From assembly GCF_030553055.1 (NCBI RefSeq), contig NZ_CP130713.1:5394001-5458000 (forward strand): 64,000 nucleotides of DNA, given 5' to 3'. The stretch is from Streptomyces sp. XD-27 (GTDB lineage: Bacteria > Actinomycetota > Actinomycetes > Streptomycetales > Streptomycetaceae). Shown in pieces: positions 1 to 55,486 of the stretch (position 1 is its first letter; each line of letters begins with the position of its first letter). A model generated the notes under the pieces. It saw only the letters and a list, made by a program, of their open reading frames with translations. It was not told where the DNA came from and did not search any database. The translations under genes were made by a program, and so were the position numbers.

Positions 1-1971
1 CTGCGGCAGCTGGGCGCGGGCGGGGTCCAGGCGCGCACCTTCCACTCCGCCGCGCTGCGCCAGCTCCAGTACTTCTGGCCGAAGGCGGTCGGCGGCGACC
101 TGCCGCGGCTGGTCGAGCGCAAGGTCCAGGTCGTCTCGGAGGCCGCCGCGCGTGCCCGCATCCGCCTGGACCGCAACGAGCTGCGGGATGTCACCGGCGA
201 GATCGAATGGGCCAAGGTCACCCAGACCGTGCCCGAGGACTACCCGGCGGCCGCCGCGAAGGCGGGCCGGGAGGCCCCGCGCGACGCCGCCGAGATCGCC
301 CGCGTCTACGCGGGGTACGAACAGCTCAAGCGCGACCGGGGCGTGATCGACTTCGAGGATGTGCTGCTGCTCACCGTCGGCGTGCTCCAGGAGCGGCCGG
401 ACATCGCCGACCAGGTGCGCCGCCAGTACCAGCACTTCGTGGTCGACGAGTACCAGGACGTCAGCCCGCTCCAGCAGCGGCTGCTGGAGCTGTGGCTCGG
501 CGACCGGGACAGCCTGTGCGTGGTCGGTGACGCCAGCCAGACCATCTACTCGTTCACCGGCGCCACCCCCGACCATCTGCTGGACTTCCGCACCCGCCAC
601 CCCGGGGCGACCGTGGTCAAGCTGGTCCGCGACTACCGGTCCACCCCCCAGGTCGTGCACCTGGCCAACGGCCTGCTCGCCCAGGCCAGCGGCCGCGCCG
701 CCGACCACCGGCTGGAGCTGGTGTCCCAGCGGCCCGCGGGCCCCGACCCGGTCTACACCGAGTACGGGGACGAGCCCGCCGAGGCCGAGGGCACCGCACG
801 CCGGATCCGCCGACTGATCGACTCCGGGGTGCGGCCGAGCGAGATCGCGGTGCTCTACCGGGTCAACGCCCAGTCCGAGCTGTACGAGCAGGCGCTCGCC
901 GACGCCGGGGTGCCCTACCAGCTGCGCGGCGCCGAGCGGTTCTTCGAGCGGCCCGAGGTGCGTGAGGCGGGGCTGCTGCTGCGCGGCGCGGCCCGCGCCG
1001 GGGGCAGCGACCCGGCGCTGCTGGACGCGGATATCCCCTCCCAGGTCCGTGCCGTGCTCGGCACGCGCGGCTGGACGCCGGAGCCCCCGGCCGGATCGGG
1101 GGCGGTGCGGGACCGCTGGGAGTCCCTGGCGGCCCTTGTGCGGCTCGCTGAGGACTTCGTGCGGGCCAGGCCGGACGCCACGCTCGGCGACCTCGTCGCG
1201 GAGCTGGACGAGCGCGCGAGCGCCCAGCACGCCCCGACCCTGGAGGGTGTGACGCTCGCCTCACTGCACGCCGCCAAGGGCCTGGAGTGGGACGCCGTCT
1301 TCCTGGTCGGCCTGACCGAGGGCATGATGCCGATCACCTACGCCAGGACGGACCGGCAGATCGAGGAGGAGCGGCGGCTGCTCTACGTCGGCGTGACCCG
1401 GGCACGCGTCCACCTCACGCTCTCCTGGTCGCTCAGCCGGGCCCCCGGCGGCCGTGCGGGACGCAAGCCCAGCCGCTTCCTCAAGGGACTGCGGCCGGGG
1501 TCCGCCGCCACCGGCTCGGCCTATCGGCCCGCCCTCGCCGGGGAGAGCGCCGGCGGTGTCGAGCGGGGTGCCGGCCGGGTGCGCAGGCGGCGGACCCCGG
1601 CGCACTGCCGGGTGTGCGGCCGGACGCTGACCGACGCGGGTGAGATCAAGCTCATGCGCTGCGAGGACTGCCCGTCCGAACTGGACGAGGGGCTGTACGA
1701 GCGACTGCGCGACTGGCGGGCGGAGCGCGCCAGGGAACTGGGCCAGCCCACCTACTGCGTCTTCACCGACAAGACGCTGCTCGCGATTGCCGAGGCCGTT
1801 CCGGGAACCGCACCGGAGCTTTCCGGCATCTCTGGAGTAGGAAGGCGCAAGCTCGACGCGTTCGGTGCCGAGGTTCTGGCACTGTGCGCCGGGGCGGACC
1901 CCGTACGGGACCCGCTGGGCGATCTTTCCGAGGGCGGTCGCGACACCCCCGGAAAGTCGTTGGAAAAATAG
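1..1971 (+). CDS. uvrD2: ATP-dependent DNA helicase UvrD2, 5' end outside window
   Basis: The frame is open from base 1, so the gene begins upstream; 656 residues are visible. SF1 helicase motifs appear in order: Ia (TFHSAA, residues 18-23), II (VDEYQD, about 148), III (GDASQTIYSF), IV (RDYRSTP), V (HAAKGLEWD) and VI (YVGVTRAR, about 464). The Walker A segment must lie in the missing N-terminus. After the helicase core comes a four-cysteine zinc module (CRVC...CEDC, about 536-553) and a C-terminal HRDC-like domain (about 575-630). That is the layout of actinobacterial UvrD2, a 3'-5' DNA helicase of repair. The stop codon abuts the wblC promoter, a neighbourhood conserved in actinobacteria. 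Confidence 0.93.
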   Translation: MRQLGAGGVQARTFHSAALRQLQYFWPKAVGGDLPRLVERKVQVVSEAAARARIRLDRNELRDVTGEIEWAKVTQTVPEDYPAAAAKAGREAPRDAAEIARVYAGYEQLKRDRGVIDFEDVLLLTVGVLQERPDIADQVRRQYQHFVVDEYQDVSPLQQRLLELWLGDRDSLCVVGDASQTIYSFTGATPDHLLDFRTRHPGATVVKLVRDYRSTPQVVHLANGLLAQASGRAADHRLELVSQRPAGPDPVYTEYGDEPAEAEGTARRIRRLIDSGVRPSEIAVLYRVNAQSELYEQALADAGVPYQLRGAERFFERPEVREAGLLLRGAARAGGSDPALLDADIPSQVRAVLGTRGWTPEPPAGSGAVRDRWESLAALVRLAEDFVRARPDATLGDLVAELDERASAQHAPTLEGVTLASLHAAKGLEWDAVFLVGLTEGMMPITYARTDRQIEEERRLLYVGVTRARVHLTLSWSLSRAPGGRAGRKPSRFLKGLRPGSAATGSAYRPALAGESAGGVERGAGRVRRRRTPAHCRVCGRTLTDAGEIKLMRCEDCPSELDEGLYERLRDWRAERARELGQPTYCVFTDKTLLAIAEAVPGTAPELSGISGVGRRKLDAFGAEVLALCAGADPVRDPLGDLSEGGRDTPGKSLEK

Positions 1972-2000
1972 TTTGCGCCCGCGGAGGGCATAGTCATAGC
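1964..2000 (+). promoter_or_regulatory. wblC promoter with WhiB7-type AT-rich element
   Basis: AAAAAT (1964-1969) lies two bases before a -35 like TTTGCG (1972-1977). A 17-base spacer leads to a -10 like CATAGC (1995-2000). An AT-rich block just upstream of -35 is the known mark of WhiB7-autoactivated promoters. In this GC-rich DNA the A-run stands out. It overlaps the stop codon of uvrD2. The -10 is weak, and a shifted -10 (TAGTCA) cannot be excluded. Confidence 0.6.
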
Positions 2001-2111
2001 CTTCCGAGCACGGAGACAACGGGCCTTCCAAAGTCTGCTGGATCCGTGTCGTACAGCCACGCGCGGACTGGTTCCGACCAGTCCCTGAGACGCCGAGAGG
2101 AGGCGAGGACA

Positions 2112-2393
2112 GTGATCAGCTTCATCAAGACCACCAAAATGACCGATCGCTCGGTCGTCTTCGCCTGCCCGCTCGGCTCTTCCCTGCTTCTTCAGGGCAC
2201 CGGTCTGTCCGGATCCCTGGAAGCGCGCATCAGCGAGCGACCGACCAAGGCACCTGAGGTAGCGGCAGTGGCGCAGGCGAATGCCTATGCCTTTGCGACG
2301 GCGGCCAATGGTGCCGGTTTCCAGACGACGCAGCAGCACCACCACCCCATGTGGGCCTTCCGCGGGCTCGAACCCTGGAGTCATCCAGCCTGA
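2112..2393 (+). CDS. upstream ORF in the wblC leader, 93 residues
   Basis: GTG start at 2112 with a perfect AGGAGG (2098-2103) eight bases upstream, so translation is very likely. The product starts MISFIKTTKM, is Ala/Gln rich in the middle (AQANAYAFATAAN) and ends QQHHHPMWAFRGLEPWSHPA. I recognise no domain. Its last codons (2358-2365) hold a sequence complementary to the 5' arm of the terminator that follows 26 bases after its stop. The ORF therefore probably acts in cis, coupling ribosome progress to termination before wblC. It could also be a small protein in its own right. A longer frame reaches back to 1884 inside uvrD2 but lacks support. Confidence 0.7.
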   Translation: MISFIKTTKMTDRSVVFACPLGSSLLLQGTGLSGSLEARISERPTKAPEVAAVAQANAYAFATAANGAGFQTTQQHHHPMWAFRGLEPWSHPA

Positions 2394-2455
2394 TCCACGA
2401 TCAGGTCGGCACCTTCCAGGGCCGCGGAACCCACACCGGGATCCGCGGCCCTTTT
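2358..2455 (+). terminator. wblC attenuator: terminator with competing antiterminator
   Basis: A perfect 10-bp stem (2419-2428 with 2442-2451) with a 13-base loop is followed by TTTT (2452-2455), an intrinsic terminator 74 bases before the wblC start. The upstream octamer TTCCGCGG (2358-2365), inside the last codons of the upstream ORF, is exactly complementary to CCGCGGAA (2422-2429) in the terminator's 5' arm. The two pairings exclude each other. A ribosome finishing the upstream ORF would mask the octamer and favour termination; a stalled ribosome would leave it free and favour read-through. The pairing is seen; the mechanism is inferred from known WhiB7/WblC attenuation. Confidence 0.75.
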
Positions 2456-2529
2456 GATTTGCCCCGGCGGGGCCAGGAGACCCCGACCCCCGCCTACCAG
2501 CCGGAACGAAGAGACGAGGAACACACACC

Positions 2530-2895
2530 GTGCAACTCAAGGCGCACACCCCGTCCGTATCGACCGACCTGATCCCCCCGCCCGACCTCTCGGAGGACTC
2601 CTTGACCCCGCCCGCGACCACGCTGACCGAGCTCGACGACGCCATCGAGAACCTCGGCGTAGCCGTACCGTGCCGCTCCTACGACCCGGAGGTCTTCTTC
2701 GCCGAGTCGCCGGCCGACGTCGAGTACGCCAAGTCCCTGTGCCAGACCTGTCCGCTGCGCGAGGCATGCCTGGCCGGAGCCAAGGACCGTCGTGAGCCCT
2801 GGGGCGTCTGGGGCGGCGAGCTGTTCGTCCAGGGGGTCGTCGTCGCCCGCAAGCGGCCGCGTGGCCGCCCGCGCAAGAACCCGGTCGCCGCATGA
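2530..2895 (+). CDS. wblC: WhiB-family regulator WblC (WhiB7)
   Basis: 121-residue iron-sulphur regulator. The four cluster cysteines are C48, C71, C74 and C80, followed by the GVWGG turn (92-96) and a C-terminal AT-hook RGRPRK (111-116). The AT-hook identifies the WhiB7 type. WhiB7/WblC binds the housekeeping sigma factor and AT-rich promoter elements to switch on intrinsic antibiotic resistance and ribosome-stress genes. The start is GTG at 2530 behind GACGAGGA. A roughly 520-base leader with an upstream ORF and attenuator precedes it. Its stop overlaps the ATG of the next small gene. Confidence 0.95.
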   Translation: MQLKAHTPSVSTDLIPPPDLSEDSLTPPATTLTELDDAIENLGVAVPCRSYDPEVFFAESPADVEYAKSLCQTCPLREACLAGAKDRREPWGVWGGELFVQGVVVARKRPRGRPRKNPVAA

Positions 2896-3212
2896 TCACC
2901 GCCGGAACGATCGACCGACCCTCGACGCACGACCCCAAGAAGCAGGACCCGACCATGACGCCGTCCGCCAACGAGCCGGCCCCCTTCACCACCGCCCGTA
3001 ACGCCGGTGCGACCGAGTCGCGCCAGAACAGGACCCGAGAAATGCAACTCATCCCAGAAGCCCTGGCCCGTGCCCATATGCGTGAACGACTGCACGAGGC
3101 GGAGTCTCAACGCGCAGCCGTCCGGCTCGCCGCCGCCCGCCGGATGCAGCGCCGGGCCGAGCGCGCCTCGCTCCGCGCCCGCCGAGCGCTGGCCATGGCG
3201 GTCATGCACTGA
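2892..3212 (+). CDS. small basic protein co-transcribed with wblC
   Basis: 106 residues. The ATG overlaps the wblC stop as ATGA, which indicates translational coupling. An internal start at 2955 (MTPSANEP) behind an AGGA-like sequence is also possible. The N-terminal third is polar. From about residue 50 the chain is Arg/Ala/Glu rich and looks like one continuous helix (MQLIPEALARAHMRERLHEAE onward), ending in Arg-rich repeats. I recognise no family and assign no function. The coupling suggests a role within the WblC response. A strong hairpin follows 32 bases after the stop. Confidence 0.7.
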   Translation: MITAGTIDRPSTHDPKKQDPTMTPSANEPAPFTTARNAGATESRQNRTREMQLIPEALARAHMRERLHEAESQRAAVRLAAARRMQRRAERASLRARRALAMAVMH

Positions 3213-44458: not shown

Positions 44459-44589
44459 GGAAGTGCTCTCCCTCGCTCGGCTGGGGGGCCAGGAGGGGTG
44501 GTGCGCGATGGTCGCGTACGGGCGTGCCGCACCGGAGCAGGGCATGCCGCGCAGCGTCCACCGGCCCAACCCGCGAGGCCCGGACGTGT

Positions 44590-44700
44590 TCGAGGCCGTC
44601 GGCAGGTAGTCGGACTTCACGCGCACGCAAAAACACACACGTACACCGTTGCGGGACAGTTCCGGATTCGCACCGGATTCCCCTGCGGCGACAGCGAGGA
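44590..44700 (-). promoter_or_regulatory. cobalamin (B12) riboswitch in the nrdAB leader
   Basis: Read on the minus strand, the core GGGAATCCGGTGCGAATCCGG, continuing to CUGUCCCGCAACGGU (44682 down to 44645), matches the conserved B12 aptamer. It is followed by a B12 box of the form AAGTCCGACTACCTGCC (44617-44601). It lies 130-240 bases upstream of the nrdA start. In S. coelicolor this riboswitch shuts off class I reductase when B12 allows the class II enzyme. The exact 5' limit is uncertain. Confidence 0.9.
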
Positions 44701-44704
44701 TGAG

Positions 44705-44749
44705 CATACATCTTGTGTTGACTGCCGCACGCGCCACCACATGTTGTGT
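44705..44749 (-). promoter_or_regulatory. tandem NrdR boxes at the nrdAB promoter
   Basis: On the minus strand, ACACAACATGTGGT (44749-44736) and ACACAAGATGTATG (44718-44705) resemble the NrdR consensus ACACWATATATWGTGT. They are spaced 31 bases apart, the usual three helical turns. They lie just upstream of the riboswitch, overlapping the presumed promoter. Confidence 0.75.
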
Positions 44750-55283: not shown

Positions 55284-55486
55284 GCGGCGCCAGAGCGGGA
55301 CCCTCAACCCGCCCGGCACCGCAGCCCGGAGTTGCATCGGCCGACCGGGTCGGCCGATCGGAGGCCCCGGCGCCGTCAGGGCAGAGAGCGCCGTGTACCT
55401 CGATCCGCCCTCCTGTGCGGGGAAGGCGGAGGTCTTGCGGAGAGCCGGGAGTCATGGGCGCTCCCGGGAGATTGCGCCGTCAACAT

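Follow-up and report, generated by a model that had tools for sequence, protein, structure and literature searches.

The leader of wblC in Streptomyces sp. XD-27 very probably controls its gene by ribosome-dependent transcription attenuation. It was read in the window, by which I mean the whole 64,000-nucleotide stretch analysed, from a genome that is a single contig of 7.55 Mb. In 5' to 3' order, the sequence holds a uvrD-like helicase gene, a WblC-type promoter, an upstream open reading frame (uORF) with a Shine-Dalgarno sequence, an intrinsic terminator and wblC. Parts, order and coordinates are as an earlier note on this DNA had given them, and the wblC attenuation circuit that it proposed is supported by these parts, by their order, by the published mechanism, and by comparative tests of the terminator and of the competing pairings. 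The gene itself (2530–2895, plus strand, as are all leader features below) has a GTG start and encodes 121 aa matching Pfam Whib (7.4e-15), with four cysteines, GVWGG and RGRPRK, which I take to be the hallmark residues of WblC/WhiB7. Its best named matches are from Streptomyces and 91–93% identical; its own genome holds one close wblC match and four other Wbl matches, 39–47% identical. The Pfam match, the residues and the genome comparison identify a WblC/WhiB7 orthologue directly 3' of the leader. A 106-aa ORF (2892–3212) overlaps the wblC stop codon (ATGA) and has a tblastn match in 80/80 Streptomyces loci, while neither Pfam nor NCBIfam gave a match for it. Elsewhere in the window, Rfam matches the sRNA scr5239 (55287–55432, minus strand) and a cobalamin riboswitch (44584–44741, minus strand).

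The promoter (1964–2002) consists of AAAAAT (1964–1969), 3 nt, the −35 box TTGCGC (1973–1978), 18 nt and the −10 box TAGCCT (1997–2002). In WblC-type promoters, according to the accessible part of PMC7157823, GAAAWY sits 3 nt 5' of the −35 box; AAAAAT agrees with it at five of six letters, at that same spacing, and is a predicted WblC site. Under a loose pattern, the layout was found in all 75 Streptomyces loci scanned, out of 81. Downstream lies the 93-codon uORF (2112–2393), with a GTG start, a TGA stop (2391–2393) and, 8 nt before the GTG at 2112, the Shine-Dalgarno sequence AGGAGG (2098–2103), its length and Shine-Dalgarno sequence being as noted earlier; a uORF of 88–118 aa was found in 81/81 Streptomyces. 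The uORF had also been held to be unusually long, which is so in comparison with classical leader peptides but not for this leader, where the median length is 107 codons in 75 Streptomyces (range 88–118), 119 in 35 other loci of the Streptomyces family (96–181) and 77 in 57 loci of other families (23–147). The distance from the start codon to CCTGGA is constant modulo 3 in all 74 anchored Streptomyces loci, over 19 different lengths. Sequence and frame conservation thus place a uORF with its Shine-Dalgarno sequence, predicted to be translated, between the promoter and wblC.

The intrinsic terminator between the uORF and wblC (2418–2460, hairpin 2418–2452) is supported by folding and by conservation. 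The earlier note was right about its presence but not about its length, put at 10 bp: the stem comprises 11 bp, AGGGCCGCGGA/TCCGCGGCCCT (2418–2428 with 2442–2452), beyond which come an A.A mismatch, three more pairs (CCC/GGG) and a 5-nt loop, and the hairpin is followed by TTTTGATTT. The wblC GTG at 2530 is separated from 2455 by 74 nt, as had been stated. The fold of 2340–2465 has a z-score of −4.58, none of 200 shuffles being equally stable; a generic terminator scan with a loop limit of 8 did not list the terminator of the wblC leader. The terminator was found in 81/81 Streptomyces sequences, the window counted in, and its hairpin in 100/100 additional loci from 27 families, a count that describes loci with a good WblC, since these loci were hand-picked, non-randomly, from the best WblC matches listed and genomes of the class without a good match were excluded. 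The additional loci comprise 34 from other genera of the Streptomyces family, one more Streptomyces and 65 from 26 other families; 83 of them pass a strict stem-plus-T rule, a further 12 show the hairpin and the last five were judged by eye, the T tracts being weak in some. In a 102-sequence alignment the terminator letters are almost invariant: 4 of the 14 stem pairs are constant and 8 have changed on both sides, a number of double-sided changes reached by 0/500 shuffles.

The uORF contains a segment able to pair with the 5' arm of this terminator. The octamer TTCCGCGG (O, 2358–2365, codons 83–85) is the exact reverse complement of CCGCGGAA (2422–2429), as noted earlier. Its designation as the antiterminator holds for the pairing but not for the whole structure, in which sequence and folding make the octamer the middle part of a longer antiterminator formed by GTGGG, TTCCGCGG and CCCTGGAG of the uORF with the contiguous segment C+D (2414–2434), D doubling as the terminator 5' arm. 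GTGGG (2351–2355) pairs with CCCAC (2430–2434), a helix kept weakly across the class, and CCCTGGAG (A, 2373–2380) pairs with C (2414–2421). Together with the stop-codon hairpin that it encloses (2389–2405, 2389–2395 with 2399–2405), the antiterminator amounts to 28 pairs in the window. The exact octamer occurs in only 6/81 Streptomyces and TTCCGTGG, which pairs through one G.U, in 61, so that 8 O:D pairs are possible in 67/81 when G.U is counted; at least 7 pairs are possible in 78/81, one row being unmatched. The octamer core CCGCGG, exact and at the same place, is mostly limited to the Streptomyces family; the core is CCACGG in loci L183–L185, whose family I take to be mycobacterial. The CCCTGGAG/TTCCAGGG helix next to the octamer is the part that can be traced most clearly to other families.

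Folding of truncated RNAs delineates the switch. When the RNA ended at 2434 or 2441, that is, before the 3' arm has been made, O:D was predicted at 0.96 and A:C at 0.95. When pairing was limited to RNA from 2385 or 2406 onwards, mimicking a ribosome at the stop codon, the terminator was predicted at 0.99. For the full transcript in the absence of ribosomes, equilibrium folding prefers the terminator (0.90–0.98); the antiterminator must therefore form first, which makes the switch a kinetic one. I infer the following order of events, together with the response to drugs, the autoactivation and an indifference to the peptide. A ribosome finishing the uORF would cover its final codons and stop codon, and because the tail is thereby kept from C and D, O and A would be masked, D would join the terminator 3' arm and transcription would stop near 2455–2460. 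If ribosomes were slow or stalled short of about codon 80, or were absent there, the tail would pair with 2414–2434 ahead of synthesis of the 3' arm, and the antiterminator so formed would let RNA polymerase read through into wblC, whose product would then boost its own promoter. A slowdown anywhere along the long uORF should suffice.

If the uORF tail and the terminator side are partners, each locus's own tail should fit its own terminator side better than those of other species. This was assayed by swapping tails and sides between species, since the uORF tail is gap-rich and its alignment therefore less trustworthy. For A:C, the last 24 nt of the uORF were combined with 13 nt at the terminator foot; for O:D, the segment next upstream of these 24 nt was combined with D. 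Among 42 genera outside the Streptomyces family, each represented by one locus, own combinations scored −12.66 kcal/mol versus −10.59 for swapped ones for A:C, and −15.32 versus −13.94 for O:D (0/2000 shuffles in both cases). With one locus per family (N = 22) the corresponding values were 0/2000 and 3/2000. Seven control windows of equal size, four against C and three against D, gave no such signal, one of them pointing the opposite way (1995/2000), and neither did the stop-codon hairpin. In loci L138, L132 and L142, pairs are altered yet complementary. Inside the Streptomyces family, where A:C shows almost no variation, swapping gives a weak result for this helix (342/5000), while O:D holds (0/5000). 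Scored on the class alignment, the antiterminator beats the shuffles (0/500 each) by its number of paired cells, by cells with a double change and by covariation score, but it does not stand out by pairs that show a double change (132/500) or by the types of pair present (77/500), and RNAalifold returned the terminator only, no antiterminator. By this comparative evidence, the uORF tail and the terminator side evolve together. These data also bear on the explanation that GC-rich DNA has produced the uORF and the hairpins by chance. There are 49 ORFs of at least 25 aa in 5 kb, and even the frame antisense to the uORF (2112–2393, minus strand) is open in 75/75 Streptomyces. However, conservation of both terminator and uORF, a frame kept over 19 lengths, and coevolution accompanied by negative controls leave chance with next to no credit. 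The open antisense frame, TCA, CTA and TTA being absent from the uORF, probably reflects codon usage and kinship; dual coding was rejected because the codon usage of the window genes by itself gives each such frame a mean chance of 0.77 of being open, the sequences are related, and conservation is not highest at second codon positions.

The coding properties of the uORF bear on whether the signal resides in translation or in the peptide. Codon work used 75/81 Streptomyces, the other six having been missed by the terminator or Shine-Dalgarno pattern although uORFs are present in them. Over 500 random pairs, pN/pS was 0.96 for the uORF body (the uORF minus its last 16 codons), compared with 0.66 in those final 16 codons and 0.26 in wblC, while pS itself hardly differed between the body (0.252) and wblC (0.262); a uvrD comparison was left out because its low bins were misframed (653 pairs). 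Identities at the three codon positions were 0.76/0.74/0.76 for the uORF against 0.92/0.95/0.77 for wblC (2701 Streptomyces pairs), and averaged 0.745/0.744/0.716 for uORFs in 55 within-genus pairs elsewhere, where exceptions such as L173/L174 and L184/L185 have a lower third-position identity. As averages, which leave room for short patches, these values detect no purifying selection on the uORF body at the protein level. It seems, from these comparisons, that translation of the uORF is kept and its peptide, on average, is not. Since the frame is nevertheless kept in 74/74 loci, the comparison favours translation itself, rather than an arrest peptide, as the signal.

The alternative is that ribosomes are halted at one set codon by a specific nascent uORF peptide acting together with a drug. 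Such an arrest peptide could account for the short patches conserved in the 75 Streptomyces (G29-T30-G31, E42-R43-P44 and W81-A82) and for a GTG[LM]S-like motif that recurs in other families. This motif, near CAGGGGACCGGTnTGTCC (peptide QGTG[LM]S, window 2196–2210), is found mid-uORF in, among others, L124, L127, L182 and L183; 21/57 loci outside the family score at least 9 with a matrix that was seeded with 10 of these 21, 17 of the 21 being in frame, while codon-shuffled sequences have a mean of 1 and a maximum of 6. Nevertheless, the pN/pS of the body (0.96) next to that of wblC (0.26), the codon-position identities, flat in Streptomyces and on average elsewhere, and uORF lengths spanning 23–181 codons make an arrest peptide improbable, and the signal probably lies elsewhere than in the peptide. 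A second alternative, an amino-acid-specific attenuator in which a codon run (HisHisHis, codons 76–78 in the window) senses a single charged tRNA, draws on the columns of H77 and H78, at which 84% and 91% of the 75 Streptomyces carry His. The run spans only two to three codons in Streptomyces, however, and inspection by eye did not find it among the uORFs listed from other families, which gives no conserved run of control codons for one amino acid; reports, in the accessible portions of the literature, that several drug classes and also amino acid starvation act as inducers are likewise unlike the sensing of a single amino acid. This reading is therefore very improbable, and translation itself is retained as the favoured signal.

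Part of the uORF sequence is fixed all the same. The codon alignment across Streptomyces, suggested earlier as a check, revealed that short patches and rare codons are kept but gave no sign of protein constraint on the body. CGA for R43 and GGT for G31 are each fixed in 74/75 Streptomyces, although they make up 3% and 9% of their codon boxes in the window genes. Over 2112–2340, rare AT-ending codons (CGA, GCA, GGT, TAT, TTT, AAA) stand at fixed places in the 75 Streptomyces uORFs, and GC3 of the uORF is 0.76 versus 0.935 for the window genes. Going by the alignment, conserved patches with rare codons would be left unexplained by pure sequence indifference. A tRNA shortage at the conserved AT-ending codons was considered; many AT-ending codons (TTT, TAT, GAT) share a tRNA with the C-ending codon. 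RNAalifold, given 60 sequences, also predicted extra helices within the uORF, and these show almost no variation.

One hypothesis, to which I incline by a small margin, is that the whiB7/wblC leader is a single ancient RNA family, spread throughout the Actinomycetes and absent from Rfam, that acts as a general translation speedometer: its terminator would be near-frozen, its 3' arm mimicked by the last codons of the uORF, mimic and partner would coevolve, and the body (23–181 codons) would on average be free at the protein level. Sensing of any slowdown over tens of codons would, if true, explain induction by unrelated drugs and by starvation. The comparison predicts that the switch still works when the uORF body is recoded, whereas the last codons and 2414–2434 tolerate paired changes only. 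In actinomycetes, WblC/WhiB7 governs the intrinsic resistance to many drugs that target the ribosome. A class-wide alignment (A1) and a covariance model of the wblC leader (R1) could seed an RNA family entry. In its own genome R1 gave one strong match, the wblC leader; matches of lower score, up to E 1, either lay on the opposite strand of this leader or, at the two places retrieved, had nothing to do with it. In a phylum sample, 21/296 genomes matched at E ≤ 0.001. Of the 26 places listed, 13 are known wblC places, three more (L204, L207 and G196) proved to be whiB7 leaders, two lie on the opposite strand of leaders already known and one (G639) was left aside; L202, L203, L205 (two matches, one hairpin), L206, L208 and L211 were rejected as terminators of other genes. 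R1 thus found no second gene with a wblC-type leader in its own genome or the 296 phylum genomes, a negative that is no proof of absence because R1 misses true leaders, as in G250, where it has no match despite the leader at L183. At L206, in another actinobacterium, a GGCCGCGGATCC-type hairpin with a T tail stands immediately 5' of an ORF, presumably TrpE-like, and is possibly a separate attenuator.

The finding is ordinary in kind, since this mechanism has already been published, both for wblC of S. coelicolor and for whiB7 of mycobacteria. Lee, Lee & Roe (2022, Mol Microbiol 117:179) reportedly described uORF-mediated attenuation of S. coelicolor wblC, and Burian & Thompson (2018) are said to have described attenuation in the mycobacterial whiB7 leader. 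Rfam 15 has no match at gathering score in 1964–2529, its sole match over 1900–2600 being a chance one on the other strand (E 0.76), and the literature search, a weak one given that most subscription papers fell outside it, found no class-wide analysis of the wblC leader. The switch is accordingly filed as already known in kind, while its comparative refinement may be new. In the parts available, PMC11550727, PMC13393426 and PMC10727445 treat ribosome-dependent attenuation of wblC/whiB7 as established, and the available text of PMC12121999 describes ribosome stalling inside the whiB7 uORF as untested. The S. coelicolor wblC attenuator, known here through excerpts of citing papers, agrees with the present one in gene and genus, in how its parts are ordered and in the switch proposed, with no known difference. 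The mycobacterial whiB7 leader (PMC4128351, Dinan 2014, accessible part) likewise combines a uORF, a Shine-Dalgarno sequence and a stem-loop with T tail in attenuation before the WhiB7 gene. The are5sc and tiaA leaders of S. coelicolor also use a uORF and a terminator/antiterminator pair to control transcription through drug-inhibited translation, but they differ, in the portion of PMC12421871 consulted, in encoding peptides of 3 and 9 residues with stalling at the start codon and in responding to lincosamide/streptogramin A/pleuromutilin only. The toiL-topAI leader of E. coli belongs to a different gene and host; like the wblC leader, it serves several classes of ribosome-targeting drugs with one uORF, according to the available sections of PMC12121999.
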